From contig JAJZPO010000020.1 of assembly GCA_021811155.1 (NCBI GenBank), forward strand, positions 1 through 39,680: a stretch of DNA of 39,680 nt, written 5' to 3'. The translations under genes and the position numbers were made by a program. How positions within the stretch are numbered: position 1 is the stretch's first letter; every line of letters begins with the position of its first letter. The notes under the pieces were generated by a model. The model had not been told where the DNA came from, ran no database searches, and worked only from the letters and a program-made list of their open reading frames with translations. The DNA is from Bacillota bacterium (GTDB taxonomy: Bacteria; Bacillota; Desulfitobacteriia; Desulfitobacteriales; JAJXUE01). Positions 19,779 through 38,489 of this stretch are shown here, in pieces.

Positions 19779-21296
19779 TTAACTGTAGAGAAAATTCGCC
19801 AAACGTTTTAGCCATTTCAGCCGCTTCTCAGAATACGGATACCACTGCAGCTCGGTCTTAACAGGATAGTACCCCTCATTAAGATGGCGAACATGGCAGA
19901 ATTCGCGCAAGCCCAAAGCCGCGTGGGTGCGGCCAATCCCGCTCTCCTTAAACCCGCCCCACGGAGTTGCAGCCAGACCATAGGTGTAGATGACATCATT
20001 GATCCACACCGTGCCCGCTTCCAGGCGCCGGGCTGCAGTCCGGGCCTTGGAGCGGTCCCGCGACCAAACGCTGGCCGAAAGAGCGTAGCGGCTGGAATTG
20101 GCCAGTTTCACAGCTTCTTCTACGGAATCGACCAGCGTGATGGGCAGAACCGGCCCGAAGGTCTCTTCCTGCATGAGCTTCGCTTCAGGCGGCACATCCC
20201 TCAGAACGGTCGGCTGATAAAAATATCCCGGCAGGTCGCGGCGGGGAGCGCCGCCACAGAGGAGTTCCCCCCCAAGCCTGGATGCCTCCAGGACCTGTTC
20301 ATGCACTTTCTCCAGTTGGGCCTCACCGATCATGGCGCCCACATCCACCTGCCTGACTGCCAGTTCCCCTGTGGCTAGGCGTTCTACGGGAATCCCCTGG
20401 CGCAATGCGCGTGTCTTGGCCACTACCAGTTCGATGAACTCAGAGGCTGCCGCGCGTTCCACATAACAGCGTTCAACCGAAGCACAGACTTGCCCGGCAT
20501 TGGTGAATGCGCCCCAGACCGCGCCGTTGGCCGCCCTGTCCAGATCGGCGTCCTTAAACACCAGCATCGGGTCTTTCCCCCCCAATTCCAAAGTCACAGG
20601 CTTTAGGGTCCGGGCGGCCTCGGCCATGACGCGTTTGCCGGTGGCTACACTGCCAGTGAACAGTACCTTGTCGATATCTGCTGCTACCAGGGCTGCTCCG
20701 GTAGCTCCATCTCCCTGCAGCACCTGCAGGAGATCCGGGTCCAGTCCCGCCCGGCGGAAAACTTCAGCCAGACGCTCCCCAGTGAGAGGAGTGAGCTCTG
20801 AGGGCTTGAGCAGTACAGCGTTTCCAGCTACCAGGGCAGAGACAACGCTTGTAAACGGTATGCCAAAGGGGAAATTCCAGGGGGAAATAATCCCAACCAC
20901 CCCGAGGGGAAGGTATTCAAGCACGCTCCGCTTATGGACAAACCAGCCGAGGCCGATCCGCTCCGGTCCCAGAACCCGGGCAGCGTGATGTTCCAGAAAC
21001 TTGAGCATATCCAGACTGGGAAGCAGTTCCACCGTAAAGGCTTCCACAAAGGGTTTTCCCGCTTCCAGGCTGACGAGCCGGGCAACGTCATCCCTTTCAG
21101 CCTGCAGCGCCCGGCGGAGCTCAGGCAGGATCCGGAGCCGTTTCTCCAGCGGTACGCTCCCCCAGCGCCGCTGCGCTTCCCGGGCCCGGCTGACATAGTC
21201 GGGGACCTCTTCCGGCGCAGTGGTGCGTACTGATCCGATTAACTTCAAGGTAGCGGGCGAATTGCTTTTCAGCTCCATTGCTTTCACTTCCATCAA
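19779..21296 (-). CDS. Aldehyde dehydrogenase (NAD(P)-dependent, non-acylating type)
   Basis: A 505-aa member of the classical ALDH superfamily, oxidising an aldehyde to a carboxylate. Visible are SPWNFPFG with the oxyanion Asn141, FTGSVATGKRVM (cofactor binding), LELGGKDP with general base Glu237, and NAGQVCASVERCY with nucleophile Cys271. It resembles the succinate-semialdehyde/broad-range branch rather than the CoA-acylating type. It lies downstream of the glycyl-radical activase gene in the same direction (35-base gap), so its aldehyde may come from that pathway; this is inference. Confidence 0.92.
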   Translation of the reverse strand: MMEVKAMELKSNSPATLKLIGSVRTTAPEEVPDYVSRAREAQRRWGSVPLEKRLRILPELRRALQAERDDVARLVSLEAGKPFVEAFTVELLPSLDMLKFLEHHAARVLGPERIGLGWFVHKRSVLEYLPLGVVGIISPWNFPFGIPFTSVVSALVAGNAVLLKPSELTPLTGERLAEVFRRAGLDPDLLQVLQGDGATGAALVAADIDKVLFTGSVATGKRVMAEAARTLKPVTLELGGKDPMLVFKDADLDRAANGAVWGAFTNAGQVCASVERCYVERAAASEFIELVVAKTRALRQGIPVERLATGELAVRQVDVGAMIGEAQLEKVHEQVLEASRLGGELLCGGAPRRDLPGYFYQPTVLRDVPPEAKLMQEETFGPVLPITLVDSVEEAVKLANSSRYALSASVWSRDRSKARTAARRLEAGTVWINDVIYTYGLAATPWGGFKESGIGRTHAALGLREFCHVRHLNEGYYPVKTELQWYPYSEKRLKWLKRLANFLYS

Positions 21297-21331: not shown

Positions 21332-22225
21332 TCAACAGAGTTCAAGTCCGGCAAAATAGAGGCTGCACTGCCTGATTTCTTCAGGGGCCATCCATTCCCG
21401 CTGACGGTATGGAGTATTACGGCCCAGGTTGTCCGCTTTTGTCACCCACATGGGGTTATAAGGCAGCAAAGCTACTTCTCCCACTCCCGTCTCCCGTAGA
21501 AAAGCCGCAATCGCGCCCAAGTTTTCCGGGGTGGCCGTAAGGCCGGGAATCAGCGGCACCCGGGGAAGCACAGACACCCGGGCGGCCTCCACCAGGGCCC
21601 GGAAATTGTTAAGAATTATCTGGTTGTCTTTCCCGGTGTGGCGCCGGTGCAGCTCCGGGTCGAGGAACTTGATGTCAAAATAGATCAGGTCAAGATAGGG
21701 GAGAATCTTTTGGTCGAAGACCGGCTGGTGGTAATAGCCGCAGGTCTCCAGGGTGACGTGGATCCCCTGCGCTTTCAGGGCCGTAAGTAACGATTTCAGG
21801 TACTCGGGATGGAGAGTTGCTTCCCCGCCGGATAAAGTCACACCCCCGCCCGAGTTGCGGTAAAAAGATGCGTCTCGCAGCACTGCCTGCACCAGTTCTT
21901 CGACCGGATAATACTTGCCTATAGGCCGCAGGCCCTGGCCCGGGCAGTTTTCAACGCATGCCCCGCAAGCCTGGCAGCGCTCCCGGTCGATAGGCGAAGG
22001 GTGCCGCTGCAGATCCACTGCCCCCTTGGGGCAGACCTCTTGGCAGGCGCCGCAGGCCAGGCAGTCGCCGGGAGAAAACATGATTTCCGGGAGCGGGCTG
22101 ATGGCCTCGGGATTCTGACACCACACACAGGCAAGCGGACAGCCCTTGAAAAACACCACACTCCGGATCCCTGGCCCGTCGTCCAGTGCATTCCGCTTGA
22201 TGTCAACAATTAACGGTTGGCACAC
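21332..22225 (-). CDS. Glycyl-radical enzyme activating enzyme (radical SAM)
   Basis: Uses S-adenosylmethionine and an iron-sulphur cluster to put a radical on the C-terminal glycine of the partner enzyme encoded upstream. The radical SAM motif is CPLACVWC (CxxxCxxC). An inserted ferredoxin-like domain carries CLACGACQEVCP and CQACGACVENCP. GGVTLSGGEAT is the SAM-binding GGE-type motif. The frame opens at 22315, but the GTG at 22225 follows AGAGGAGC and begins near the conserved VDIKRNALDDGPGIRS, giving 297 aa. 5'-Deoxyadenosine is its by-product. Confidence 0.93.
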   Translation of the reverse strand: MCQPLIVDIKRNALDDGPGIRSVVFFKGCPLACVWCQNPEAISPLPEIMFSPGDCLACGACQEVCPKGAVDLQRHPSPIDRERCQACGACVENCPGQGLRPIGKYYPVEELVQAVLRDASFYRNSGGGVTLSGGEATLHPEYLKSLLTALKAQGIHVTLETCGYYHQPVFDQKILPYLDLIYFDIKFLDPELHRRHTGKDNQIILNNFRALVEAARVSVLPRVPLIPGLTATPENLGAIAAFLRETGVGEVALLPYNPMWVTKADNLGRNTPYRQREWMAPEEIRQCSLYFAGLELC

Positions 22226-22322
22226 AGTAACTGCCGCTCCTCTCAATATACCGCCCGAAGGTCGCCGCTCAAAAACACGTATAGCACGAAGCCGGTGCTG
22301 CCGGCACCGGCTCAACGGCCTC

Positions 22323-25315
22323 CTAGACGAGGTTGTACTCGGTCCGCCGGATGATCTCCCTCTGCATGTCCTCGTTCAGTTCCACAAAGTAAGCATTATA
22401 ACCTGAGATGCGGACCAGGAGCCAGCGGTAGTTTTCCGGGTGGGCCATGGCGTCTTTGAGCATCTCCGTGGTCACGATATTGAACTGTATCTGCATGCCG
22501 CCCAGCTCGAAATAGGTCTTGGTATAAGCCGTTACCCGCTCCACAAATTCGCTGTGCGTATCCCGGGGCCCCGGAGTCACTTTAACGTTAAAAGCGATGT
22601 TGTTGGGCATTTTCAGCGGATTGAGGCCTGCGATGGTGTGAATATTGGCCAAAAGCTCATCGCCAACCCCGGGGGAAGGTGTAATCCCCGGCGTGAATGG
22701 CTGCCCTTTTTTCCTGCCGCTGGGTATGGCCCCGGACAAGGTGCCAAAAGCTACATGGTTGGACATGCTCCAAAATCCGCTGGTGTACTTGCCGCCGCGG
22801 TAATTGTCGTGGCGCTGGTACTCTGCATAGATAAAGTCAATCAGTTCCTGGGCCAGTTTCCCGGGCTCCTCAGCCTCGCTGCCGAACTTGGGCACCTTGG
22901 TCAGAATCCGGGCGTGGAGAATTTCATAACCCTGAAAATCCCTGGCCAGGGCCTGCAAAAGGGTCTGCCATGCTACTGTTTTTTCCTCGTAAACCAGCTG
23001 TTTGATCGCTATCAGGCTGTCGATGACATCGGTAATGGACACCAGGGCAGCTCCCGAAGTGTTGTAACGCGCTCCTCCTGCGATGACGTCCCGGCCCCGC
23101 TCCATAGGGCCCTCAAAAAAGGATGACAGCAGTGGCGTAGGATGAAGGTACTGGTGCGAAGTTCCCAGCAGGTTGTTGTACTCGACAGCCTGGTCGATGA
23201 GCCAGCTCAGCTGCTGTTTATAGGCTGCTTTAAAATCGTCAAAGGTCGGAAAGCTCTCCGGGTCTGCCGGGTCGCCGGTCCTGGGACCGATCTGCTCCCC
23301 CATTAGAGGGTGGACACCATTATAGAGGGCCATCTCCAGCGGGGCTACCGTGTTGAGGAGCATGCTGTTGGTGTGGCCAAAATGCCGTCCGGCGCTCGTG
23401 GGTTCCACACAACCCGTGGCGGCCCAGTCCCGGGCGTCTGCCAGGCTGAACCCCTGGTTTACCAGGGCCGGAATCACCGCTGCGTCGTTGTGCAAAGACG
23501 GGGTCGCTGCGGTTACGGTATTCACTTCAATCAGCCGTTTCAGGTACTCAGCGGAGGTTACCCCGGGGTAATAGCGGGCATTTACATTGGGGTCCCGCAG
23601 GGCCAACATCTCTGTGACCTTGAGAAAGACATAGGTCATGTCGCAGACCACGCTTTCCCCCTGCCGTCCACTCCGCCCAGGGTGAGCGCCTGGTCGGAAG
23701 AACTGCCGCCAAAGAGCCGGTTGCCGATATCGGGAGATGCCGGCAGGTGGTCGGCGCATTTCAGAAAAAAGCTGCCCACCAGTTCTATAGATTGCCGGAT
23801 AACCTCTTCCTTTTCCGCTTCGCTGTTGGCTTTGGCCATATCTTGCAGAAAATAAGGCTGCAGCCACTGGTCCAGACGCCCCAAAGACAGCCCGGCGTTC
23901 ATGTTTTCCATGTGCAGCGCCACCCAGGAGAGCCAGATTGAATTTACGGCTTCCCGCAAGGTACGGGCCGGATAAGCAGGCACCCGGGCCAACGCAGCCG
24001 CCATTTCCTCCAGTTCCCGCTTGCGCCGGGCCTCTCCCGGATTGGCGTCAGACAAGGCCGCGGCCATCTGGCCAGCCTTTTCCTTCAGGTTCGCGGCGTA
24101 GGCCAAGACACCCTGCTGAGCGATCTGCATGGCCCGGTAGAAGTTGCGCTTCTCTTCCGTTTTAGCCTGTTTTTCCTTTTCCCCGGCCTCCGAGATGATA
24201 TCCCGCAGGCCGCGGCTGAGGATCATGGGGAAATTGGGGATGGTGTGGGATACGGCATGGGGTTTCCAGGAGAAGTAGAGCACCCAGCGGTCGTCCAGCT
24301 GCTGGCAGCGGGGATTGCCGTACTTCTTGCGGGTATACTCCATCACGTTGCGCCCGGTCCAGAAGGGAAACACTTCATAGTTTAGTATGTCAATATCCTC
24401 TGCCGCAATGCGGTAAGGGTTTAACGGGCGCTCGTCGATGTTCAGCAGCTCCGGCCAGAGCAGTCCGGCGCCAAATTCCGGAAAGAGCAGCACGCCGACT
24501 TCCTTGCTGGTGCTGGTGCCTGCAAGGAGGTCCGAGTCCCGGATCACCGGCTGGCGGTGGGAAAGGATGTAATGCAAAGCCTCAGCCTGGCGGATTTCCG
24601 GATCCCGCTCCCGGCCGTCCGCATCACGCTCAAAGCCATGTTTGAGGAAGTATTCTGTGAGGAGTCGCGGCCTTTCCGTGCAGATTTCCCCTGGGTTGAC
24701 ATAAAGTCTCTCCCGCACTGACTTCAGGCGGGGGAAATCTTCCAGGCTGTACCGGCTCAAAAAGGGTTCGGTCAAAACCTGCACCTGGTCATGAGGCCGG
24801 GACTCCAGGCTGGCCCGGTGGGAAAGGGGATGGGCTGAGCGGGCTTCCGGGTTGTACCTGATAGTTAGATTGGGGTTAGTTTTATTTTGGGCCAGTAGCT
24901 TGCGTTTTTTCTTACCTGCCGACATCTCTTTGGAGAAATGGCCGAACTTGGCCAGGTACATCACATTTCCCTCGATGGACAGCTCATTCTCCAGCATCAT
25001 GATCAGCGGATCGCCTGGCCGGGTCGGAGAAAAAAGTTTACGCATCCCCTGGGGACTTTTAAAGGTAAAAGTCAGGTCCGGATTCGCCAGCATACCCCGG
25101 CCAACCTGCATTTTGCCGCCGGCAAAGATAACATGGATTTGGATCGAATCATCCCTGGTACGGAAGATAAACCTGGCGTTAAACACATATTTATAATGAC
25201 CGGGCTTTTCATCGGCAAGGTTGCGCCGGAATTCCGGGCTAAGGCGAAAATAAAGGGACATGGCTCGCAGGATCGCACTCACATATGCGGTTGTAGCCAA
25301 TTTGCCGGTTTTCAT
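22323..25315 (-). CDS. Glycyl radical enzyme with N-terminal SCP2-like domain (frameshifted)
   Basis: Reads as one 997-aa protein if one G is restored at 23657-23661. Without it, the first frame ends shortly after TLGGVDGRG (559 codons), and the rest continues in the next frame from GESVVCDMTY. The C-terminal part has the active-site ATGCVEPTSAG with Cys636 and the radical-site LVRISGYNAYF with Gly972, as in dehydratase/lyase-type radical enzymes rather than pyruvate formate-lyase (no Cys-Cys). Residues about 42-135 look like an SCP2 lipid-binding domain (GKMQVGRGMLANPDLTFTF...SIEGNVMYLAKFG), an unusual fusion. It starts at ATG behind AAGGGGGAG. The substrate is unknown. The break may be a sequencing error or a real mutation. 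Confidence 0.85.
23657..23661 (-). other. Frameshift site (G5 run) in the glycyl radical enzyme gene
   Basis: On the coding strand the sequence AGG GGG AAA GCG must become AGG GGG GAA AGC to keep the conserved reading GGVDGRGESVVCDMTY. So one base is missing from the G-run, or a -1 slip would be needed. Confidence 0.85.
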
Positions 25316-25351: not shown

Positions 25352-26497
25352 CTATGAAGAGAATTCCGTGGAGGAAAACTTTACCTGGTGATACACATCA
25401 GGCAGGTATTTTTTGTACAGTTCCGGGTTTTGATCGCTGAAATAAGTGTCTGCATAGGAGTCCAGCCTGGTCAGGTCTATACTGGCGCAGACCAGTTCGT
25501 TCCGATCAAAACTTGCTGTCTCGGCAATCACCCCGTCCCTGGCCGGGGTAAGACCCAAAGGGGCAAATATCCCGGCTTTCCCGCTGAACCTGATGCCGTA
25601 CAGCTCGCCCACCAGGGAGGACTTGAGGCCGAATACGCCGCTTTCCTGCACCCGCGGCCAGATGCCGCGCAGCGCCAGATAATAATTGTATTCTTCCATA
25701 TTCGCAATCGGGATGATGACTATCTGTGCACCCTGCTGTTTGAGGATCTTGAAGGTTTCAAAATAGGTGGCATCCATGCACACCGGAAAGGCGATCTTGC
25801 CCAGCTTTGTAGCAAAAACCTGCAGCCTTTCACCGGCAGACAGGCCCAGATCCATTTCCATTTCCACCAGGTGGGTTTTGTCCTGGGTACCAACAATCTC
25901 GCCATCTGGTCCGAACAGGTAAGCCCTGTTCACCAATTTGCCCTTATCTTCGATAATCACGCTCCCGGCCATGATATAAACGCCAAAGCTTCTTGCCAGT
26001 TCGCTGAAGGTGGTTTCAAACACACTCGTGATAAAAGGCGTCAGAAAGGAGAACACATAAGCAAGGTTGATGCCGGTCTTCTTTTTCTCGCTTTCGCCGA
26101 GATCCATTCCCGCAGGTGTTTCAGCCCTACTCCGGCTTTCAGGCGGTTTGTCGGCGCTTTTTCTATTGAGTATCTGCGCAACCCTTAAAATAGGCTTAAT
26201 CAGAGGCAGCATGCCCAGAACCAGGGTCCCGTTTTCTTCCGGGAAGGAGATCAACTGCGCGCCTTTGTCCACAGCCTTCCGGGTAAAACCGTACATCGTG
26301 TCCACATATTGCTTGTAGTTCTCCATAATGGCCGCTTTTTCCTGGACCACTGCCACCACAATATTCCTTTTGTCTATCTCACTTAGATTCCGGCTCCGCG
26401 CAATGTTCTTACTGCGTACGTAGTCCCTGATCTTTTCCCTTTTGCCTTTTCGGTAAAGATATTTTTGCAGGAGCCTAAGCAGAAACTCGCTCTTCAT
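25352..26497 (-). CDS. Carbon-nitrogen hydrolase (nitrilase superfamily), intact triad
   Basis: A nitrilase-fold protein of 381 aa, hydrolysing an amide or nitrile of unknown identity. The catalytic triad is visible: Glu87 in SFPEENG, Lys207 in TQDKTHL, and Cys240 in FPVCMDATYFE. It is longer than most because of a basic N-terminal extension (residues 1-43) and an insertion with hydrophobic stretches at about 91-165. Its start overlaps the end of a second nitrilase-like gene by 4 bases, suggesting translational coupling and perhaps a complex. The radical enzyme gene follows 36 bases downstream. Confidence 0.88.
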   Translation of the reverse strand: MKSEFLLRLLQKYLYRKGKREKIRDYVRSKNIARSRNLSEIDKRNIVVAVVQEKAAIMENYKQYVDTMYGFTRKAVDKGAQLISFPEENGTLVLGMLPLIKPILRVAQILNRKSADKPPESRSRAETPAGMDLGESEKKKTGINLAYVFSFLTPFITSVFETTFSELARSFGVYIMAGSVIIEDKGKLVNRAYLFGPDGEIVGTQDKTHLVEMEMDLGLSAGERLQVFATKLGKIAFPVCMDATYFETFKILKQQGAQIVIIPIANMEEYNYYLALRGIWPRVQESGVFGLKSSLVGELYGIRFSGKAGIFAPLGLTPARDGVIAETASFDRNELVCASIDLTRLDSYADTYFSDQNPELYKKYLPDVYHQVKFSSTEFSS

Positions 26498-27249
26498 CTC
26501 TCCCTACCCTTTTCACCCTGTAATTCCTGCCGGTGGTGCTGATACAATTCCAGGTTCAGGCTCTTGAACACCGGGAACTCGTTATATGCTTCCTGCCTCT
26601 TTGCGGCCGAAAGCTGCGCATAGAGAGGAGCCTCTCCTCTGGCCAAAAACCCGCTCAAATCATCCGTCACAGCGCAGGGGCCGATGATGTGTCCGCCGCA
26701 GTTGGTGGAATTAAGCACATAAAGACAGTTTTGCTGCGACTCTTGCCAGGCTCCGGCGAGGACCATGGCCTCATTGAAATCACTCTCCCTGATATACTGG
26801 CTGCTGACAACTATTTCCGCCCCAAGCAAGGCGGCAATGCGCAGCGCTTCCGGCTTGAAGATGTCGATGTCGACGCACAGGAACAATCTGGCAAAGGGCG
26901 TGTCAATGACCTTAATCTCCGGGCTTCTCTCTAAATCCCCAAACCACGCCGTGTTCAGGTGTGTCGCCTGTTGTTCACCGGCGACCCTTCCCTGGTTATC
27001 CAGGACGCACAGGCACAGATGATTATCCTTGATATATAGACCCGGTACCAGATAAACATTGTTTCTAACGGCGAATTCGGCAGCCTCCTGCATAAATTCG
27101 CTGTAGCTGCGGTTATTGATAACACTGAGGCCGTCCTGCGGGAACACCGCCAGCTGCACCCCAGGCTTAAGATCCGTTCTCTTCCCGGTCAGAGCCACAT
27201 TAACAGTTTCCACCTTGTCACACCCTGCTTCCCGCAAAGCCGTGCCCAA
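26494..27249 (-). CDS. Nitrilase-fold protein with degenerate catalytic triad
   Basis: A 251-aa protein resembling the nitrilase superfamily along its length (VFPQDGLS, QQATHLN, LFLCVDIDIFKPEALRIAALLGA). Only the cysteine remains (Cys125): the Glu is Gln38 and the Lys position is Ala95. The N-terminal helix normally found before the Glu is shortened. It is probably a non-catalytic partner or regulator of the next protein. The start is uncertain: the TTG at 27249 has GGAG ten bases upstream, and later GTG codons are alternatives. Confidence 0.75.
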   Translation of the reverse strand: MGTALREAGCDKVETVNVALTGKRTDLKPGVQLAVFPQDGLSVINNRSYSEFMQEAAEFAVRNNVYLVPGLYIKDNHLCLCVLDNQGRVAGEQQATHLNTAWFGDLERSPEIKVIDTPFARLFLCVDIDIFKPEALRIAALLGAEIVVSSQYIRESDFNEAMVLAGAWQESQQNCLYVLNSTNCGGHIIGPCAVTDDLSGFLARGEAPLYAQLSAAKRQEAYNEFPVFKSLNLELYQHHRQELQGEKGRER

Positions 27250-27278: not shown

Positions 27279-28505
27279 CTAACGTGATCCTTTAATTTTG
27301 AAGACCAGCAAGCTGCCAATGACCAGATAGGCAATAACCAGAACATAAAGCAGGCTGTAGCCGTATGCCAGGTTGGTCTCGTGGTAAACGGCGAGCAGGT
27401 AGCCGCCGATTTTGGGGCCCAACACCTGGGGCAGGGTGGCCGAAACCGTCCACAGGCCCAAATCCTTGGCCGAACCCTCGGCATCCGGCAGGCAGTCGGT
27501 AACCAGGGCCCAGTGAACGCTGGTAAATCCCCCATACCCCAGTCCAAAAATGACCCCCATGACCAGAATGACCTGGAAGGAGGGCCGGAACAAAAGGGCA
27601 AAAGCCATGGTCGCCATAAACAGGGCGGAAAAAGAGGCGACCTTCTTCCTGCCGATCTTGTCGGATAAGACGCCGGCAACGACCGAAATCAGCGTGGCGC
27701 CGACGAGGACCACAGCACTGACCAGGGTGGTGTCCTGGGCAGGGTGAGTCGAGCCCATGATGTCTTCCAAATAGTACTGCTGGAAATTGAACAGGGTATA
27801 AAAACCGATCATGATAAAGAAAGAAGCAACCAGCAGCCAGATAAAGTCAGGGTGTTTTTTCGGGCTGACATAAAAAGTCTTCAGGAAAGTTGTCAGGTTG
27901 AACTTCTCCTGGTTGAAGTGCGGCTTCTCCTTGATCCCGAAGGCAGTGACAGCCATTGTTGCCAGAATAACAACCCCGATCAGTACGTTGATCAGTCCGT
28001 AGCGGTGCTGGTCGGCCAGGCTTCCTGACAAGACCACGGCGCTGATGGTGCCCAGGAAGGTCATAATGCCCAAAAAACTGGCCGCAATTCCCCTCTCTGC
28101 CGGCGTCACTGTATCAGGTATCAGGCCCTGGTACCCGGCGGTACTGATATTGACAAAAAGCTGCAGCAGCAAGAAACCTCCGGAATAGACAATTATGTTG
28201 CTGGTTGTACCCATGATGTAAAGAGGGATTGTGGTCAATAAGGCGCCAAGGACCATCATAGGTCTCCGCCTGCCGAAGGAAAGAGTGCTCCTGTCGCTCA
28301 AGGCGCCAAAGACCGGCTGGGAAATCATCGCCACCAAGGCCCCGACCGCAATCACGCTCCCCAAAACAGCCGACTTGGCATTGTTGCCGACAATGAATTG
28401 AACCTGAGACGGGATGACGATAGCCAGCATCGCCCCCCAGAGAAAATTGATGGCAAACCAGTAGGCGGAAAGTTTGAAGAAGAAAAAGAAAGAAGCTCTT
28501 TTCAC
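27279..28505 (-). CDS. MFS transporter
   Basis: An integral membrane protein of about 408 aa with twelve predicted helices. It has the major-facilitator loop signature GALSDRSTLSFGRRRPM between helices 2 and 3, and a repeat of it in GVLSDKIGRKK. The pattern around FGRRRP recalls sugar/glycoside carriers of the SLC45/GPH-like type; the substrate is not known. The ATG at 28511 touches the AGGGGG ribosome binding site, so the GTG at 28505 is the better start. A 329-base hairpin-rich gap lies upstream. Confidence 0.87.
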   Translation of the reverse strand: MKRASFFFFFKLSAYWFAINFLWGAMLAIVIPSQVQFIVGNNAKSAVLGSVIAVGALVAMISQPVFGALSDRSTLSFGRRRPMMVLGALLTTIPLYIMGTTSNIIVYSGGFLLLQLFVNISTAGYQGLIPDTVTPAERGIAASFLGIMTFLGTISAVVLSGSLADQHRYGLINVLIGVVILATMAVTAFGIKEKPHFNQEKFNLTTFLKTFYVSPKKHPDFIWLLVASFFIMIGFYTLFNFQQYYLEDIMGSTHPAQDTTLVSAVVLVGATLISVVAGVLSDKIGRKKVASFSALFMATMAFALLFRPSFQVILVMGVIFGLGYGGFTSVHWALVTDCLPDAEGSAKDLGLWTVSATLPQVLGPKIGGYLLAVYHETNLAYGYSLLYVLVIAYLVIGSLLVFKIKGSR

Positions 28506-28511
28506 TGCCAT

Positions 28512-28840: not shown

Positions 28841-30631
28841 TCACTGCCTTTCTTCAAATAAGGCCTGGTGCAGGGCAAAAGCCAGGTACCCGGCGCCCGT
28901 GGCAAAGCCAACTCCCGTTCTGGCTTCACCCGTATTCCTGTCAAAGCTTTCCGCCAGAAGGCCGTGGTCCATGCCGGCTTTTTTCAGCCATGCCAGGGCC
29001 TGTTGCCGCATCAGGGGGTTTAAGATGCTGCCGCACAACCCCAGCCCTGACGGGGTATTGGGGTAGTGGTCACAGGCCAGTTCCCTGATCTCGGCAGCGG
29101 CAAAGTAATAGTGATAGTTTGCCGAATAATAGTAATCCATGGTGTGCCTGAATACCGGATCCTCTTCCCCGACAAACCCGTAAAAACAGAGCAGGCCCAG
29201 ATTGCCGGGTGGATCATTGTACAACTGGTAATTTCCCTGCCCGTCGCCTGCCCAGATAAACATTTCTTTCCCTTGTACTTCCCGCGTGAGGTATTTATGG
29301 ATTCCCTGCTCGATTCCTTCGATTCTTCCCTGCAAGAATTTAACATTTTCCGTCTCCCCGCTGCGGGAAAAGACCTGCATTAGGTTCTTAAGCCCTCGCC
29401 AAAGGATGACATTGTCGATGGTGACCAGCGGATATTCCGCCGGGTCATCAGAAGGGAGCAAAAATGTACGATACAGCCCTGTTGCCGGATCGTATTCCTG
29501 TTCGATGCGCTCAAGCACCTTTTCCAGTTCCTGTAGAAGCGGTGCCGGGACGGGGTCGTCCTCCCATTCAGCCAAAAGGATAAAGTAACTGGCCGCTTCG
29601 TCCAGCTCGAACCCCGGGTACAAAACAGTGCCGTCAAGATAATGGGCATGGTCGCCGGCGTTTCTGGCGTGCAGCATGATCATTTCCTCCGCCAGCTTGC
29701 GGTGCAGCTTCCGGTCCACCAGCCTGATGGCAGGAAATGACCACAAAAAGCTGTCCCGCTCCCAAAAGGCCCCGGAAACGTAATAGCGCGGGCTGCGCGA
29801 GGTCAAAGCCAGGTACCTGTCGCTCTCCAGGTCTTTGGCTGCGGCAAAGAAATAATTGAAAAACAGATTTTCATTAAGAATCCTTTCCAGCAGTGGGTCG
29901 CCGCTGTATGAAATGGTTTTTTGGCTTAACCAGGCCTCAAACTCAGCGTAGATGCGCTGATAGCCCTTCCGCCTTAGGTGGATCAGGGTGGTGGAAGCGC
30001 CGTCCGGATCTGAATTTACGCTCACATAAAAACAGTTTCTGTTATTACAGGGTAATGTCAGATTGAGCAGCCGGCTTTTCCCGCTGTAGCTGAAAGCGAA
30101 GTCCGTCTCACCCCCAAAAGCCAGGGCAAAAGAAACCTGGGGAGAGACAATATCAACCACAGGGTTGCCCAGCCATTTGTCCGTCTTAACAGTCATCTCT
30201 GCCGCCACGCGATGGGAGTTAAAGCGCAGCAGGTTGACATGTTCGAGATTGCAGGCCAGCCTGATATCTATTGCTGCAGAACTAGCAAACTCGTAGACGA
30301 ACCCTTTCTCCTGCAAGTCGGCATAGATTCTCCCCGTAACCGTGGTGCCGTCTTCCAGGAAAAAGGACAGGCGGGGCAAGTAATAGTGTTCTTTAACCGT
30401 CTCTGTTTGTGTTATTGCCAGCTGTTTTCCTTCCCGGTAGAAGAAAGGCTGCAGCAGGTTATTCTCCCCCTCCAGTTCCACCAAAGCTTTGTTGGCCAGG
30501 GAGACAATGTTTGCGTTTCTGATTGAACCATCCTGGCAATCAATAACCGGTATGCCGATATAGTGGTTTCCCGCGTACAAAACCTTTTCGTTCTTTTCCA
30601 GTTCCTTAGGGCGCGTCAAAATCTTGTTCAT
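28841..30631 (-). CDS. Six-hairpin glycosidase-like protein
   Basis: A 596-aa cytoplasmic protein (no signal peptide). The N-terminal third is beta-rich. The remainder resembles the (alpha/alpha)6 barrel of six-hairpin glycosidases, with SGAFWERDSFLWSFPAIR, LDGTVLYPGFELDEAASYFI and ATGLYRTFLLPSDDPAEYP. These acids could be catalytic. The exact GH family is not clear to me. ATG at 30631 follows CGGAGG; an earlier in-frame start at 30655 lacks support. Between an amino-acid-type permease and an MFS carrier, it may process an imported or intracellular glycoside. Confidence 0.7.
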   Translation of the reverse strand: MNKILTRPKELEKNEKVLYAGNHYIGIPVIDCQDGSIRNANIVSLANKALVELEGENNLLQPFFYREGKQLAITQTETVKEHYYLPRLSFFLEDGTTVTGRIYADLQEKGFVYEFASSAAIDIRLACNLEHVNLLRFNSHRVAAEMTVKTDKWLGNPVVDIVSPQVSFALAFGGETDFAFSYSGKSRLLNLTLPCNNRNCFYVSVNSDPDGASTTLIHLRRKGYQRIYAEFEAWLSQKTISYSGDPLLERILNENLFFNYFFAAAKDLESDRYLALTSRSPRYYVSGAFWERDSFLWSFPAIRLVDRKLHRKLAEEMIMLHARNAGDHAHYLDGTVLYPGFELDEAASYFILLAEWEDDPVPAPLLQELEKVLERIEQEYDPATGLYRTFLLPSDDPAEYPLVTIDNVILWRGLKNLMQVFSRSGETENVKFLQGRIEGIEQGIHKYLTREVQGKEMFIWAGDGQGNYQLYNDPPGNLGLLCFYGFVGEEDPVFRHTMDYYYSANYHYYFAAAEIRELACDHYPNTPSGLGLCGSILNPLMRQQALAWLKKAGMDHGLLAESFDRNTGEARTGVGFATGAGYLAFALHQALFEERQ

Positions 30632-30725
30632 GTCTAGCCTCCGGTAGTGCTGCAATTTTAGTAAACATTCTTTCCTTCGCCTTAATTACCTGCTCTTAAC
30701 GGGATTTTTTAGTTTAATCCTTAAC

Positions 30726-32012
30726 TTACCTGGCAAGCCTTGGAACTATGAACACACTGTAGGCCAGGGCCAGGATCAGCCCGCCCGCCAGCAGGATGAC
30801 TACCGCAGGCGGTGTTGGCGGCAGGAGCATCAGGACTGTGAGAGCGCCGAAGACCAACGCGGTAAACCCCGGCGCCAGGACATTTTTCCAGCCGCGCAGT
30901 TTCAGGACAGCCAGGGAAACAAGGGTATAGATGATGCACTCCACAGAAGCCGCCAGAAAGATCGGGGTCTTAAAGCTCCCCGTGCCGATGACAAAAAGGG
31001 TGAGCAGGAGCTGCAGCAGGAAAATGAACATCAGCGAGGACCAGGGGGTAAAGAAGCGCAGGTGAACTTTCGCCAGAAAACCCGGCAGCACGCCCTCCCG
31101 GGCCATAGCGTACATCAAACGGGACGTACCCATGATTCCCGCATTAAAAGCCGTGAAAGTGGCGATGACACTAATCACTCCCATGATCATAATTCCCGCC
31201 TTGCCCGCCAACAGCCGGGCAAATTCCATGTGGGGAGTGGTGGAATTGAGCAGGGAAGCGGTATCCACGTGTTTGACCACGGCCGTGCCGAACAGGGAAT
31301 AGGCAATGCCCAGGGTAACAATGGCCAGGGTCATAGCTTTGCCCAGGGAATTCACGTCTTCCGCTTCTTCCGCCAGGGGTGTAATCCACTCAAACCCGAT
31401 AAACAGGTAAATGGCGTAGGCCACCGCTTGGGTAAACATCAGTCCGTCAACCCGGGCAGACTGGGAAACGGCGTGTGACGATGGTTGAAACAGGGCGTAA
31501 ACCGACAAGCTCACCAACAGGACCAACAAAGTAAATGTCAACAATTCCTGAACTTTTCCCGCCACACTGACTCCAACCAGATTAATACCCAAAAATGTGA
31601 GCAGCACCAAAAAAATCCATGCTTCCAAGGGAAATGAGGCAAGAAGAGTCAGGTTGAAGGTCTTAAAGATTATGCGGAGTACACTGGCAAAGACATACGC
31701 TTCCGCCGCCCCGGCCGCTACCGCCAGGATGATGTACATCAGGGAAACCGTATTGCTCGCTCTTTCGCCGAAGGCGTTTCTCACATACACCTGCACACCT
31801 CCGGCATTGGGAAACCTGCGCGCCAGCTCTGAAAAGTTGCGGGCGGCCATGATGCAGACAAAGGCGGCCAATAGGATAGCCGCCCAGATATACCTGTCGC
31901 CTGCTGTATGCCCCACTTGCACCACAGCGGCATATACGCTGGACGCCAGCCCCAGGCCGATGCTGGTGGCTGCCAGCGTCCTCAGTCTTAACACCTTCTG
32001 CAGGGTTGACAT
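30726..32012 (-). CDS. Amino acid/amine permease (APC superfamily)
   Basis: A membrane protein of 428 aa with about twelve hydrophobic segments. Helix 1 has the unwound GLGLASSVYA region, followed by ARNFSELARRFPNAGGVQVYVRNAFG, a hallmark of APC carriers, and FIGFEWITPLAEEAEDV in the sixth-helix region. The substrate is probably an amino acid, amine or related compound. It starts 5 bases after the SCP2 gene stop, so it belongs to the TetR-linked operon. Confidence 0.9.
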   Translation of the reverse strand: MSTLQKVLRLRTLAATSIGLGLASSVYAAVVQVGHTAGDRYIWAAILLAAFVCIMAARNFSELARRFPNAGGVQVYVRNAFGERASNTVSLMYIILAVAAGAAEAYVFASVLRIIFKTFNLTLLASFPLEAWIFLVLLTFLGINLVGVSVAGKVQELLTFTLLVLLVSLSVYALFQPSSHAVSQSARVDGLMFTQAVAYAIYLFIGFEWITPLAEEAEDVNSLGKAMTLAIVTLGIAYSLFGTAVVKHVDTASLLNSTTPHMEFARLLAGKAGIMIMGVISVIATFTAFNAGIMGTSRLMYAMAREGVLPGFLAKVHLRFFTPWSSLMFIFLLQLLLTLFVIGTGSFKTPIFLAASVECIIYTLVSLAVLKLRGWKNVLAPGFTALVFGALTVLMLLPPTPPAVVILLAGGLILALAYSVFIVPRLAR

Positions 32013-32016
32013 TGTA

Positions 32017-32370
32017 TCAACTCCATAAATACTGAATTATGGCATCCACCTTCATCTCATCTTTGGGAGAACCGACGAACTTCACATTACCCTTGGCATA
32101 CTCTTTGGCCGGGTTCAATTTGCCGGTAAAGATGCCAATGATGACATCGGCGGGTGCGATGATGCTGATATCTTTCTTGCCGCTTTCACCTGGGACGAGT
32201 TCCTTGATTGCATCGTCTGCCACCACTACCGTACTGGCAAGTTCGAGGTCGGTAACCGAGATGAAAATATGCCTGTCCCAGTCCCTGACCATTTTTTTGA
32301 CCAATTTGTTGGCATTGAAACGCTGGACAAACTGCTCCAGGGCCATGAACAAGTCTTCCGCAGTAGCCAT
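32017..32370 (-). CDS. SCP2 sterol-binding-domain protein
   Basis: A stand-alone SCP2-like domain of 117 aa, a fold with a hydrophobic tunnel that binds lipids, sterols or acyl chains. The end pattern APADVIIGIFTGKLNPAKEY, then GNVKFVGSPKDEMKVDAII, is the usual SCP2 C-terminal half. The frame opens at 32394, but the ATG at 32370 follows AAGGAGAG with good spacing. A second, diverged SCP2-like domain is fused to the radical enzyme further down the cluster. Confidence 0.87.
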   Translation of the reverse strand: MATAEDLFMALEQFVQRFNANKLVKKMVRDWDRHIFISVTDLELASTVVVADDAIKELVPGESGKKDISIIAPADVIIGIFTGKLNPAKEYAKGNVKFVGSPKDEMKVDAIIQYLWS

Positions 32371-32405
32371 ATATCCACTCTCCTTTTTCTTCATCCCTGC
32401 CTGAG

Positions 32406-33521
32406 CTATTCTGCTCCGAGTTCTTCGATCTCGATGTTTCTTTTAGCCAGTTCAGCGAAAAACACCTCCGGCTCCAGGCATCCTTCAGGCGCGTAAACCC
32501 CGGGAGGAACAGTAATCTTGCCCTCGGCCAGGAGCAGGGCTGCCACCGCGGGCGGAATCCCGGTTAACCGGTCCATGCTGTCGACGGCGCAATAACTCTT
32601 GCTCACAGGCTTGCCGTCTTTCTTGCCGCTCACATCAACCCTGATACCCGAGAGGGGCGGAGCTGCCTTGTCGCCGAGATTGCTCAGGGCCGGCAGAAAG
32701 GTTTGCATCATATCCGCCAGAGCATCGAGTTTTTGCTGGCTGTTGAGCATGTCCATGGCAATCATGCTTTTGGTCAGTTGATTCAGTTCTTTTGGCACCA
32801 GGTAGCCCCTGAGGGCAACATTCTTTAACCCGTCCACAAACCTGGGGAAAGTGACCGGCTCCGGATGGCCGCAATAGTATGCCGGTACGGTGCCAAAGGG
32901 TTCCGGGAATCTGACTGCTTTTACACCGCTTAAAGCAGGCACATCGACCCAGCGGGAATTCTCGAACATAGGCGTGTTGCGGGTAACGGCATGGAAAACG
33001 TGTTTGATTACGGCAAGCCCCTCGCTGTCGGAGGCGCTCCCCACCCAGGTCATCTCCACGTCTTCGGCTGCATCCATCTGCTTCACGCCGTGCAGAGCCA
33101 AGAGGTTGCTTATTCCCGGGGTCCAGCCTATGCCGATTAAGAGACCGACATTTTTTCTCCTGGCCAGTCCGTCCAGGGAGAGGAGAGCAACAGTGGCATC
33201 ATCGTCATCACAGATGTCTATGTAATTCACACCTGCTTCTATGGCCGTGCTGGCGATGCTGAAAGCGTATTTGTAAAAAGGCCCGATGCAGTTTACCGTT
33301 GCGAACGCGCCGGCAAGCGCTTCCAGGAGGGATTCCCGCAAATTAGCGTCGACAAATTTCACCGCAATGTCCCCACCTAGTTCCTGGGCCAGTTTCTGGG
33401 CCCGGTCCACCCTGAAATCCGCCACGGTTACCTGGACCTGGCCGCTTTTGTGCAGCTCCCTTACCACCCGGCCGCCCATATCACCGGCTCCGCCGAGCAC
33501 CACGATGTTTTTCTTGTCCAC
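32406..33521 (-). CDS. Saccharopine dehydrogenase-like NAD(P)-dependent oxidoreductase
   Basis: A 371-aa protein of the saccharopine dehydrogenase-like superfamily. The N-terminal Rossmann motif is IVVLGGAGDMGGRVVREL, then VADFRVDRAQKLAQ, and ATVNCIGPFYKY follows. The middle has GIGWTPGISNLLALHG. The reaction is unknown; relatives act on lysine- and polyamine-type conjugates, or reduce lipid intermediates. It starts at GTG behind AAAGGAGG and is the first gene after the promoter and operator facing the TetR gene. Confidence 0.87.
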   Translation of the reverse strand: MDKKNIVVLGGAGDMGGRVVRELHKSGQVQVTVADFRVDRAQKLAQELGGDIAVKFVDANLRESLLEALAGAFATVNCIGPFYKYAFSIASTAIEAGVNYIDICDDDDATVALLSLDGLARRKNVGLLIGIGWTPGISNLLALHGVKQMDAAEDVEMTWVGSASDSEGLAVIKHVFHAVTRNTPMFENSRWVDVPALSGVKAVRFPEPFGTVPAYYCGHPEPVTFPRFVDGLKNVALRGYLVPKELNQLTKSMIAMDMLNSQQKLDALADMMQTFLPALSNLGDKAAPPLSGIRVDVSGKKDGKPVSKSYCAVDSMDRLTGIPPAVAALLLAEGKITVPPGVYAPEGCLEPEVFFAELAKRNIEIEELGAE

Positions 33522-33729: not shown

Positions 33730-34281
33730 TTGCAGGAGAACAAGAAAAAAATCCTTGAAAGCTCGATCAGGATTTTTTCCGAAAAAGGGATACACCAAGC
33801 CACCCTTGCAGATATAGCCGCGTCTGCCGGGATAAGCAAGGGCACCCTATTCTACTATTACAAGTCTAAGGACGACCTGCTTTACGATATTCTTGAGATC
33901 AGCACCAATGAAATCACCGCGCTGATCGCCAACGTAATTCAGGCAAGCAACGGCCAGGTGAGCAAGGAGACGTTCCTGCTGGTTTTCAACAGCTTGCTCA
34001 AATATGACTTCCTGATGAAGATAAATTACTATATAGTGGAACAAGCCTTGCTTGAAAATGAAATGTTTAAGGATAAATTCAGGCTCAAATATCAGAATTG
34101 GCGGGACGACATTGCCACGCTGATCGACAAGCTGAAGCTGGAACTAAACGTGGCCAAAAGAGACGCAAGAGCCGCCATTATGCTGGCGGCTATAGACGGG
34201 CTCTCTTTACAGTACCTGCTGGACCCTGCTGCCTGGGACATGGATGCTGTCTGCCGCGAATTGGCGGAGATGTTTGCTTAA
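33730..34281 (+). CDS. TetR/AcrR family transcriptional regulator
   Basis: A 183-aa regulator. The N-terminal helix-turn-helix is IRIFSEKGIHQATLADIAA, then SAGISKGTLFYYYKSKDDLL, the classical TetR signature. The C-terminal ligand-binding part is variable and ends in a helical segment with WRDDIATLIDKLK. It starts at TTG behind AGGGGGAA. It is divergent from the oxidoreductase operon, with an 18-bp palindrome between them, so it probably represses that operon and perhaps itself. Its own promoter is not clear. It converges on the M23 peptidase gene with only a few bases between. Confidence 0.92.
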   Translation: MQENKKKILESSIRIFSEKGIHQATLADIAASAGISKGTLFYYYKSKDDLLYDILEISTNEITALIANVIQASNGQVSKETFLLVFNSLLKYDFLMKINYYIVEQALLENEMFKDKFRLKYQNWRDDIATLIDKLKLELNVAKRDARAAIMLAAIDGLSLQYLLDPAAWDMDAVCRELAEMFA

Positions 34282-35425: not shown

Positions 35426-36748
35426 TTAAGACTGTTCAGTGCCTGCGGTCAGCCTCTCTTTGATCTGTTCCGCCCTGCTCTGCACCTCAGCCATGATCTT
35501 TTCACTGTCTATGGTAAGTACCTGGCGGTTCTCCATGACCACATTGCCATCAATGATTACTGTCTGCACGTCGGAACCATGGGCTGCATAGACCAGGTGG
35601 GCCACCACGTCGTGCCGCGGATAAAGGTGGGGCTGGTGCATGTTCAAGAGGATGACATCAGCTTTAAACCCGGGCTTCAACTGGCCCAGATTTTCCAGGC
35701 CCAAAGCCTTTGCCCCCTGCACGGTAGCCAGTTCTAACGCCTGATAAGCCGGCAGGGCGGTGCTGCCGCAGCTCACTTTCTGCAAGAAGGCCGCGCTGCG
35801 CATCTCACCGAACAGATCCAGATTGTTATTGGAACAGGCGCTGTCCGTGCCGAGACCCACCGTTACCCCCGCCTCCAGCATTCTGGTCACCGGGCTCACC
35901 CCGCTGGCGAGCTTCAGGTTGCTCTCGGGGTTATGAATTACCCCAACCTTGTACTTGGCCAGGAGCTCGATTTCCTGCTCATCCACGTGGACACAGTGAG
36001 CAGCCACCACCGGACGCGTGAACAAGCCCACCTCCTCCATCAGCCTGATGGGGGACTTGCCGTACTGCTTGGTAATATCATCAACTTCCACCTTGGTCTC
36101 AGCCAGGTGGGTATTAATGCCAACCCCGTATTCCTCCGCAAGCTTAATGGCCCGTTTGAGGAAATCAGGCGGGCAGGTGTAGGGGGCATGGGGAGCTACC
36201 ATCACCTTGATGCGCCCATCTGCCTTGCCGTGCCAGTTTTCAATCAGTTCTTTGCTCTGATTGTAGGCAAGCTCCGTTGCCGGACCCGTACCTACCATGC
36301 CCCGGGAAAGCACAGCCCTAAACCCGCTCTCATCCACAGCCTTTGCCACTTTGTGCATGGCAAAATACATATCCACCAGTGTGGTAGTCCCTGACAAAAT
36401 CATTTCCAGAATGCAAAGTTTTGTGCCCCAATATATGTCGTCCGAAGTAAGTTTGGCCTCAAAAGGCCAAACTTTCTCCTGCAGCCATTCCATCAATGGC
36501 AGGTCATCGGCGTAACTGCGCAGCAAAGTCATTCCCGCATGCGTGTGGCCGTTAATCAGTCCCGGCATGATCAGAAAGTCCGGCCCGCCGTATTCCGCGT
36601 CAGGCACCCAACCCTGGGGCGCAGAACCTTCCGGGCCCACGCTCAGGATTTTTCCGGCTTCAATCGCAACTTCACCCCGGGCAAAAAAATCTTTCGGCCC
36701 GGTCATGGGCAGAACCATGCCCTTCAGCAAGATCTTGTTTTTGTCCAC
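35426..36748 (-). CDS. mtaD: Adenosine-derivative deaminase (MTA/SAH/5'-deoxyadenosine type)
   Basis: Amidohydrolase of 440 aa that deaminates the adenine ring of methylthioadenosine, S-adenosylhomocysteine or 5'-deoxyadenosine to the inosine form. Metal ligands are His68 and His70 (NGHTHAGMT), His214 (NTHLAETK) and Asp302 (GLGTDSACSNNNLDL), with His251 (AAHCVHVDEQE) also conserved. The start is GTG behind GAGGAGGG. It is last in the operon with the phosphorylase, isomerase and aldolase; the neighbours suggest MTA and/or 5'-deoxyadenosine as the main substrate. The exact preference cannot be read from the sequence. Confidence 0.88.
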   Translation of the reverse strand: MDKNKILLKGMVLPMTGPKDFFARGEVAIEAGKILSVGPEGSAPQGWVPDAEYGGPDFLIMPGLINGHTHAGMTLLRSYADDLPLMEWLQEKVWPFEAKLTSDDIYWGTKLCILEMILSGTTTLVDMYFAMHKVAKAVDESGFRAVLSRGMVGTGPATELAYNQSKELIENWHGKADGRIKVMVAPHAPYTCPPDFLKRAIKLAEEYGVGINTHLAETKVEVDDITKQYGKSPIRLMEEVGLFTRPVVAAHCVHVDEQEIELLAKYKVGVIHNPESNLKLASGVSPVTRMLEAGVTVGLGTDSACSNNNLDLFGEMRSAAFLQKVSCGSTALPAYQALELATVQGAKALGLENLGQLKPGFKADVILLNMHQPHLYPRHDVVAHLVYAAHGSDVQTVIIDGNVVMENRQVLTIDSEKIMAEVQSRAEQIKERLTAGTEQS

Positions 36749-36775
36749 TTGCTCACCCTCCTCAAACCATAGATA

Positions 36776-37429
36776 TCAAACTATCTGGCTTTCGCCATAG
36801 CTTGCCAGGTAATTGCGCCGCATCTGTTCTGCATCTTCCCTGTCAAGTTCAAAGGGCTGGCCCAGGCTCCGCGCCATCAGGTTGATGTGGGCAGATTTCT
36901 CCACCATCTGGCAGACCAGCATGGCTTCTCTTACACTGCGCCCGCCGCCAACCACACCATGGTTGGCCAATAGCACCGCCCAGCGGTCTGACATGCTCAT
37001 TACCACATTCCTGGCCAATTCCTCCGTTCCCGGCAGGGCGTATGCGGCAACCTCCACCGCCCCTCCGACAACCATGGCCAGGTCTTCAATGCTCGCAGGG
37101 ATGCGAACCCGGGCAGCGGCATGGGCGGAAGCGTAGACGCTGTGGGTATGAATGACCGCCTCGATGTCAGCCCTGGCCCTGTAAACCTGGAGGTGGAGGT
37201 GGTATTCGGAAGAAGGTTTGCTGCCCTCAAGCACCTGGCCCTCCAAATCCATTAAGACCAAATCACCGGTCTCAAGCTCCAGGTAGTTCTTGCCGCTGGG
37301 GGTGATGACAAATCCGCCGGGAACCCTGGCGCTGATGTTGCCCCACGTCCCAACCACCAGGCCGTTCCGGAGCATTTCCCTCCCCGCCTGCACAACCATT
37401 TCTTTAACCGCATGTACATCGTTCGCCAT
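36776..37429 (-). CDS. Class II aldolase (fuculose-phosphate-aldolase type; shunt aldolase)
   Basis: Zn-dependent aldolase of 217 aa. Key residues are GNIS and TPSG (substrate phosphate), Glu75 (catalytic, KPSSEYHLH), His94 and His96 (VIHTHSV), and His157 (LLANHGVV). Next to mtnA and the phosphorylase, it most likely cleaves methylthioribulose 1-phosphate and/or 5-deoxyribulose 1-phosphate to dihydroxyacetone phosphate and an aldehyde, as known for shunt aldolases with this gene order. Fuculose phosphate is a less likely substrate, as no fucose genes are present. Confidence 0.88.
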   Translation of the reverse strand: MANDVHAVKEMVVQAGREMLRNGLVVGTWGNISARVPGGFVITPSGKNYLELETGDLVLMDLEGQVLEGSKPSSEYHLHLQVYRARADIEAVIHTHSVYASAHAAARVRIPASIEDLAMVVGGAVEVAAYALPGTEELARNVVMSMSDRWAVLLANHGVVGGGRSVREAMLVCQMVEKSAHINLMARSLGQPFELDREDAEQMRRNYLASYGESQIV

Positions 37430-37434
37430 AAATT

Positions 37435-38472
37435 CTACCTGACCATAACTTTCAAGAGATTCGATGCATAAGGGGGAGCCACAATCCCCTTCTCGGTAAT
37501 AATCCCTGTAATATACTTTGCCGGGGTAACGTCAAAAGCCGGGTTAAAGACCTCTACCTCCTCAGGGGCCACCTTACACCCGTAGAGTTCCCTGACCTCA
37601 ACCTTATTCCGCTCTTCAATGGGAATTTCCTCACCGTTAGCAAGTTTAATGTCAATAGTTGAAGTCGGCGCCGCCACATAGAAAGGTATCTCGTGGGCCT
37701 GAGCCAGAACAGCCAGGGAGTAAGTACCGATTTTGTTGGCGGTGTCCCCGTTGGCGGCTATGCGGTCCGCTCCCACCACCACCACATCTACCTGCCCCTT
37801 TTGCATCAAGTACCCGGCCATGCTGTCTGTGATCAGGGTAACCGGTATGCCATCCTGCAGGAGTTCCCAGGCTGTTAACCTGGCTCCCTGCAGTAAAGGT
37901 CTCGTTTCGTCCGCGAAGACTTTGATGTTTTTGCCTGAGTCGTGGGCCGCGCGGATAACCCCCAGGGCCGTGCCGTAGCCGACCGTAGCCAAAGCTCCTG
38001 CATTGCAGTGCGTAAGTATTCTTGCTCCATCACCTATGACACCATTGCCATGCTCGCCGATTTTGCGGTTAATCGCTACGTCTTCCGCCGCTATGTCATG
38101 GGCCTCCGCCAAAAGGCCTTGCTTGATTTCATCCAGGCTCTCGTCTTTGAGTTCCCGCAGCCTGTCTTCCATTCTCCGCAAAGCCCAAAACAGATTGACG
38201 GCGGTGGGCCTGGTAGCTGCCAGAGCAGAGGAAACCGCCTCCATATGGCCGATAAACTCAGCTTTGTCCTGGCCCTGGTACTCCATAGCTCCGAGTACAA
38301 ACCCGTAAGCGGCAGCTGCGCCAATTGCAGGAGCCCCCCGCACCACCATAGTGGTGATTGCCTCCGCTACGCCGCGGTATCCTGTATATTCCCTGAATTC
38401 CAATGCTCCAGGCAGTTTGGTCTGGTCAAGTAGTTTTAACCTATGGTCTGTCCATTCAATTGACTTATGCAT
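37435..38472 (-). CDS. mtnA: S-methyl-5-thioribose-1-phosphate isomerase
   Basis: Isomerises methylthioribose 1-phosphate (or the 5-deoxyribose analogue) to the ribulose form. It is 345 aa and related to eIF2B subunits. Signatures are VVRGAPAIGAAAAYG, ILTHCNAG with catalytic Cys156, and VGADRIAANGDTANKIGTY with catalytic Asp236. It is 5 bases upstream of the aldolase gene and follows the phosphorylase with a 17-base gap, so it is in one operon. Confidence 0.95.
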   Translation of the reverse strand: MHKSIEWTDHRLKLLDQTKLPGALEFREYTGYRGVAEAITTMVVRGAPAIGAAAAYGFVLGAMEYQGQDKAEFIGHMEAVSSALAATRPTAVNLFWALRRMEDRLRELKDESLDEIKQGLLAEAHDIAAEDVAINRKIGEHGNGVIGDGARILTHCNAGALATVGYGTALGVIRAAHDSGKNIKVFADETRPLLQGARLTAWELLQDGIPVTLITDSMAGYLMQKGQVDVVVVGADRIAANGDTANKIGTYSLAVLAQAHEIPFYVAAPTSTIDIKLANGEEIPIEERNKVEVRELYGCKVAPEEVEVFNPAFDVTPAKYITGIITEKGIVAPPYASNLLKVMVR

Positions 38473-38489
38473 TTTTTAACCGTCCCCTG

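Follow-up and report, generated by a model that had tools for sequence, protein, structure and literature searches.

The minus-strand gene at positions 22323..25315 of a 39,680-nucleotide stretch of a Bacillota contig (assembly GCA_021811155.1, contig JAJZPO010000020.1; hereafter the window) encodes a glycyl radical enzyme (GRE) preceded by an N-terminal domain related to SCP2. Judged from sequence, such SCP2-GREs are a real, recurrent architecture and an uncharacterised GRE subfamily, of which no report was found in the open-licence PMC literature. GREs perform demanding anaerobic reactions, and the characterised GRE eliminases act, to our knowledge, on small soluble substrates. An SCP2-linked subfamily, whether fused or split into two genes, offers a handle on how anaerobes bring awkward substrates to a radical enzyme.

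The encoded protein comprises the SCP2-like domain, a linker, a PFL-like barrel and a Gly_radical domain. Its GRE core (22383..24730) matched PF02901 (PFL-like; E 3e-64 and 2e-88) followed by PF01228 (Gly_radical; E 3.7e-21); at E 0.001, the genome (3.22 Mb) contains no second Gly_radical match. The original prediction, made from the window sequence, had pointed to the cysteine and glycine of dehydratase/lyase-type members. Both were located, the cysteine in GCVEP (CXE motif, 23403..23411; Cys codon 23411..23409) and the glycine in RISGY (22401..22403; Gly codon 22403..22401), and the glutamate of the CXE motif is also present (codon 23405..23403). The meaning of this motif as a mark of GRE eliminases is given in a passage of PMC7077986. 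Across the SCP2-linked clade described below, the Cys and Glu of CXE occur in 11 of 11 members and a histidine equivalent to HypD His160 in nine of 11. The next gene (21332..22315, minus strand) encodes a GRE activase, a radical SAM protein with a CX3CX2C motif and an extra 4Fe-4S domain, scoring 292.6 bits with TIGR02494 (cut-off 174.35).

The same prediction treated the gene as one reading frame and overlooked a frameshift. A single continuous open reading frame (ORF) was rejected, as the window gene is made up of two ORFs in different frames, 25315..23636 and 23867..22323, and homology switches between them near 23636-23669, indicating a single one-base frameshift. A scan of genome contigs with a single-protein query returned one match, in the sister metagenome-assembled genome DBS2-4.bin25 (genome G002, locus L015); the copy there shares 99% identity with the window protein over residues 1-555, and its frame stays open to the end of the 3117-base contig. 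Genome G003 (locus L012) encodes an uninterrupted SCP2-GRE of 1035 aa across the frameshift site. The frameshift in the window most likely arose by mutation very recently or reflects an error of sequencing or assembly.

The SCP2-like domain covers about 135 residues (24911..25315, minus strand). Taken alone, window residues 1-135 scored 18.0 bits (E 0.0038) with Pfam SCP2 (PF02036), missing the gathering cut-off of 21.3, and a single-sequence search of the PDB gave no match up to E 10. When 11 homologous domains were compared with Pfam (E up to 1), SCP2 was the commonest match (8 of 11, best E 0.0037), followed by WWE_1 (2 of 11). In hhalign, a profile of the 11 GRE-linked domains aligned colinearly with bona fide SCP2 proteins (96.0%, E 3.8e-9), and its score of 56.7 contrasts with a maximum of 18.0 when the target's columns were shuffled 200 times and with 9.5 when the target was reversed. 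Searching the PDB with the GRE-linked domain profile placed three SCP2 chains on top at non-significant E values of 0.04-0.06; with a broader profile (A6), SCP2 chains came second to an unrelated chloroplast protein (E 0.0019). Single-sequence AlphaFold modelling of residues 1-150 reached a pLDDT of 52, and a PF02036-positive control from the window did no better (pLDDT 45); Foldseek found no match at E 0.001 for that low-pLDDT model, its top rows being unrelated structures, many of them C2 domains. Viral contigs yielded no extra homologues of the domain. On the basis of homologue profiles rather than the single sequence, the first ~135 residues of the window GRE can be firmly assigned as SCP2-related, and the resemblance proposed originally for about 130 N-terminal residues is upheld.

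Searching other genomes for the same fusion, a check proposed together with the prediction, revealed fused SCP2-GREs in 12 genomes (G000, G002, G003, G236, G480-G485, G495 and G504), counting the frameshifted copy of the window genome G000, a copy cut at its 5' end in G482 and one cut at its 3' end in G483. The diverged fused members in G495 and G485 are only ~39% identical and still carry the domain. The searches covered overlapping sets of 73 genomes of the order, 82 of the class, 398 in a phylum sample and 97 from the class to which G236 belongs. In the phylum sample, profile A3 showed the fusion in two genomes, G000 and G236; GRE matches occurred in 112 genomes of this sample and locus DNA was fetched for 30 of these matches, so that diverged forms may have been missed.

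A split form was found in G123 (L067), where three genes lie in succession: one for an 834-aa GRE, 41% identical to the L012 protein over 821 aa; one for a stand-alone SCP2-like protein of 173 aa, which shares 29% identity with the window domain (E 1e-14); and the activase gene. The occurrence of the two parts as neighbours in one lineage and as a fusion in others is a good argument that the GRE and the SCP2-like domain work together. The 11 SCP2-linked enzymes grouped as one clade, with support of 100/100, when 25 GREs were placed in a tree, and an earlier 31-row tree gave the same grouping for the four members then known. No SCP2-like domain was detected, even at E 10, in any of 27 other GRE loci (ORFs of at least 60 aa, with ~1.5 kb flanks where the contig allowed). 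The glycyl loop reads R[IV]SGY in all 10 clade members that include the region, while the 14 non-clade GREs have RVAGY (10), RVAGW (one) or no pattern match (three).

The intact members that were scored (L012, L065, L067 and L122) reached no NCBIfam cut-off for CutC, HypD, HpsG, HpfG, PflD or the arylacetate decarboxylases. With the CutC model (TIGR04394, cut-off 1050), the two window pieces scored 132.2 and 260.8 bits and the intact L012 protein 396.8; with the HypD model (NF043068, cut-off 1100), L012 scored 366.4. The PFL2/glycerol dehydratase subfamily model TIGR01774 (cut-off 678.2) gave 517 bits for L012, 541.2 for L065, 603.8 for L067 and 426.9 for L122. Placement inside a characterised family with small soluble substrates, which would have spoken against the original prediction, is thus not what was found, since the enzyme falls below every NCBIfam GRE cut-off listed.

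The best solved match of L012 was AfPFL2 (PDB 2f3o), at 399.7 bits over the GRE core; with 776 residues it is too short for the extra domain. Chain 8iof (793 residues; by its unchecked title the alpha subunit of benzylsuccinate synthase) scored 307.1 bits, below AfPFL2, CutC, PflD and glycerol dehydratase, and MasD (206.3 bits) and TutD (149 bits) also ranked under the eliminases. Given the CXE motif and this ranking of solved relatives, a hydrocarbon-activating role of the X-succinate synthase type (BSS, MasD) is unlikely.

SCP2-GREs share with the GRE eliminases (glycerol/propanediol dehydratase, CutC, HypD and IslA) the PFL-like barrel, the Gly loop, the CXE motif and a TIGR02494-type activase with an extra 4Fe-4S domain, and differ from them in the added N-terminal domain and in R[IV]SGY instead of RVAGY/RVAGW; for IslA and the diol dehydratases the comparison was made by PDB search only. 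Most HypD substrate residues are replaced in the clade: Asp278 by Ala (Met in L067), Thr645 by Met, Tyr450 mostly by Leu and otherwise by Met or Glu, Ser334 mostly by Phe, and Asp339 by Ser, Thr or Pro. Four positions with polar residues in HypD (Asp278, Ser334, Tyr450 and Thr645) mostly carry non-polar ones in the clade, though polar residues appear at others. Relative to CutC, the positions of Thr502 and Phe389 are kept in L012 and L065 and those of Tyr208, Asp216, Phe395 and Tyr506 are replaced.

The reading we favour, tentatively and with confidence just short of balanced, is that the window enzyme belongs to an uncharacterised subfamily of glycyl radical eliminases and that its SCP2-type domain presents a hydrophobic or amphiphilic substrate to the barrel. 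The activase would place the radical on the glycine of RISGY, from where it would move to the cysteine of GCVEP, and the resulting thiyl would take a hydrogen from a hydroxyl-bearing substrate. The glutamate of the CXE motif would assist, along with the histidine kept in most members, and a neighbouring group would be eliminated to leave an aldehyde. A passage of PMC7077986 describes the substrate orientation in GRE eliminases except HypD: the hydroxyl destined to form the aldehyde is turned towards the CXE glutamate, with the leaving group directed away. The aldehyde could then be oxidised by the aldehyde dehydrogenase (ALDH) encoded directly 3' of the activase in the window (19779..21296, minus strand; PF00171, under all NCBIfam equivalog cut-offs shown) or, in G003, by an AFOR. 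An aldehyde oxidiser adjoins the GRE in these two loci, and the exchange of ALDH for AFOR between them fits an aldehyde product. The SCP2-like domain may hold the substrate, expected to be hydrophobic or amphiphilic, and offer it to the barrel, or may do the same for the reactive aldehyde; the fused domain would replace a separate carrier such as the one that persists in G123. While the relationship of the domain to SCP2, the catalytic residues, the clade, the fused and split gene forms and the neighbouring genes are observed, the eliminase chemistry, the aldehyde product, the ligand type and the hand-over to the barrel are inferred.

Several observations weigh against this reading. The HypD His160 position is occupied by Glu in the diverged fused members L122 and L123, and the HypD Phe340 position is mostly Asp, otherwise Asn or Ala, in the clade. 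Several other uncharacterised GREs are likewise non-polar at the corresponding pocket positions, so that these residues favour a hydrophobic substrate only weakly. Ten further loci (L065, L067 and L116-L123, several of them short) contained no gene related at E 1e-3 to the window ALDH or the G003 AFOR; an aldehyde oxidiser is therefore unsupported as a general partner, which lowered our confidence in the favoured reading and raised it for the non-lipid alternative discussed next. The stand-alone SCP2 protein of the window (32017..32394, minus strand; PF02036, above cut-off) had one weak match among 8 genomes and is unsupported as a conserved partner.

The SCP2-like domain itself occurs beyond GREs. 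A related SCP2-type domain forms the N-terminus of molybdopterin enzymes carrying the AhtL-like domain of pyrogallol hydroxytransferase, with 7 such ORFs in 6 genomes (three typed by Pfam, the rest by sequence likeness) and a further 5 in 3 genomes typed by sequence likeness; examples, among others, are L031:9732-12713, L034:9375-12359, L029:3350-6340 and L072:7396-10440. ORFs of ~1000 aa with weak domain matches, considered as further SCP2-GREs, proved to be molybdopterin enzymes of this kind. The L031 enzyme adjoins an SDR, a cyclase and a 4Fe-4S subunit. In L072, the SCP2-transhydroxylase-type enzyme (core assigned by likeness) stands beside BKACE, CoA transferase, cyclase, 3HCDH and SDR genes, a further point against a lipid ligand. 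The portion of PMC10470551 describing a phloroglucinol cluster lists a cyclase, a 3HCDH, an SDR and a cleavage enzyme, matching the kinds found in L072. Identity between the window domain and its counterparts on the transhydroxylase-type enzymes is only 16-23%. A further fusion of the SCP2-like domain, to a 6PGDH/3-hydroxyisobutyrate-dehydrogenase-like enzyme, occurs in G070 and G072 (L013:5774-7051, minus strand; L036:8649-9992, plus strand). The cleavage enzyme of the published phloroglucinol cluster is presumably a member of the BKACE family.

Since the transhydroxylase-type enzymes act on small soluble phenols, an SCP2 domain is insufficient evidence of a lipid substrate, and the lipid or hydrocarbon substrate of the original prediction stays hypothetical. 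A serious rival, which we hold to be a real though not the leading possibility, is that the module is a recurrent accessory domain that binds no lipid and that the GRE substrate is small and soluble; the module might then serve in assembly, in radical protection or in binding small aromatic or polyphenolic compounds. Its occurrence on AhtL-type molybdopterin enzymes, in L072 with phloroglucinol-type genes, and on the 6PGDH-like dehydrogenase is why a structural role, or binding of a soluble or aromatic compound, is a serious contender, but the low identity between the window and transhydroxylase-type domains means that their ligands may differ. Because related modules occur on three anaerobic enzymes of separate families, what SCP2-type domains do in oxygen-free catabolism becomes testable.

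A more specific lipid proposal, which we regard as unlikely, is that an alkyl- or acylglycerol, or a similar amphiphilic diol or amide, is delivered from the enzyme's own SCP2 pocket and converted to an aldehyde without O2. The GRE would dehydrate the vicinal diol of the glycerolipid remnant while the SCP2 domain held the chain, opening a missing anaerobic route into poorly soluble fragments of glycerolipids or ether lipids. The substrate could be released by a GDPD and a phosphatase in other genomes or by a glycosidase in the window. Consistent with this, GDPD and HAD-IIA phosphatase genes lie a few genes from the GRE in G480 and G483, as part of a divergent set with an MFS_2 transporter, and three and four genes downstream of it in G504, and the window GRE has a GH125-like gene and an MFS transporter nearby. 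Of 22 genomes, however, 20 have GDPD, and it was seen close to the GRE in only 3 of 13 SCP2-GRE genomes, two of them from one genus; the MFS-GDPD-HAD triad lies on another contig in G236 and is present in G486, where no SCP2-GRE was found. GDPD was accordingly rejected as a general partner and is suggestive at most, and the proposal leaves the nitrilases and the amino acid permease of the window unexplained. If the substrate does prove lipid-like, the reaction would parallel, without need of oxygen, those that oxygenases are known to carry out.

An N-acyl amino alcohol or similar amide is a far less probable substrate. The GRE would expel the amide to give acetaldehyde, and an intact nitrilase-family amidase would hydrolyse it. 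Choline lyase is a GRE precedent for cleavage of HO-C-C-N, and nitrilase-superfamily protein 2 (nit2; 25352..26497, minus strand) has kept its Glu-Lys-Cys triad, by eye, and, although the gene order differs in G003, is close to the GRE there too. Against this, no nit2 relative was found at E 1e-8 in the loci L065, L067 and L116-L123, some of them short, so that nit2 is not part of a universal pathway. The frameshift might suggest that the window copy is a pseudogene in decay, or an artefact of assembly without functional meaning, but this is scarcely credible in view of the frameshift-free homologues L116-L118, L120 and L121 (61-82% identical to the G236 protein) and L122 and L123 (~39%), the conserved catalytic residues, and a downstream half still 81% identical to G003.

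Extra domains on GREs and SCP2 domains on or beside enzymes have separate precedents. The CutC structure 9f3w (1150 residues) is a GRE with a long N-terminal addition, the match starting at residue 402; PDB searches with the SCP2-like domain, as a single sequence or as profiles, did not return it. The alkylsulfatases SdsA1/SdsAP, which act on alkyl sulfates, contain an SCP2-like domain, as stated in part of PMC5426288; their catalytic domain is unrelated to GREs and the SCP2-like domain is C-terminal, whereas it is N-terminal in SCP2-GREs. A section of PMC6747719 reports that the SCP2 domain of UbiJ binds hydrophobic intermediates of ubiquinone synthesis and that the same is proposed for UbiT in the O2-independent pathway. 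UbiJ and UbiT are separate SCP2 proteins, as in G123, with no GRE fusion.

The window GRE lies in a minus-strand gene run from 33521 to 19779, with mostly tight spacing and a gap of 329 bases between the GH125-like and MFS genes. The run begins with a saccharopine-dehydrogenase-like oxidoreductase (32406..33521) and continues with the stand-alone SCP2 protein, an amino acid permease family transporter (30726..32012), a GH125-like glycosidase homologue (28841..30655), an MFS transporter (27279..28511), nitrilase-superfamily protein 1 (26494..27249), nit2, the SCP2-GRE, the activase and the ALDH; a TetR-type regulator (33730..34281, plus strand) is divergent from it. In G003, TetR, SCP2-GRE and activase are followed, in another order, by the AFOR, the N-terminal part of the GH125-like gene and both nitrilases. 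Sequence downstream of the GRE is available in 11 loci, and nine of these have the activase there (window, L012, L065, L117, L118, L121, L122, L123 and, after the SCP2-like gene, L067), and none was found in the L116 and L120 loci. TetR genes of one family lie 5' of the GRE in L012, L065, L118 and L119, with 48-70% identity in the pairs compared.

By eye, nitrilase 1 lacks the Glu and Lys of the usual triad in both the window and G003 (L012:16384-17091). With two triad residues missing and the gene conserved next to its intact paralogue in two genera, nitrilase 1 is probably a non-catalytic (pseudoenzyme) partner of nit2. The GH125-like gene of G003 (L012:15175-16423) is reduced to the N-terminal part, 84% identical to the window copy over 266 aa, and is read as a decayed or re-purposed gene.

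Other genes were seen alongside. Proteins of 260-292 aa that apparently contain two SCP2-like domains are encoded at L066:7989-8864, L068:8636-9427, L069:8081-8866, L070:5006-5797 and L071:8643-9422, and several of these genes adjoin class III aminotransferase-like and split transketolase-like genes (N-termini, by eye). In G378, a 797-aa GRE without an SCP2-like domain (L073:3561-5951, minus strand), accompanied by an activase, stands beside an SCP2-transhydroxylase-type gene. Elsewhere in the window, at 35426-39278 on the minus strand, genes for an amidohydrolase, a class II aldolase, an IF-2B-type isomerase and a nucleoside phosphorylase lie side by side, a row that presumably resembles an aldolase-type methylthioadenosine salvage operon.

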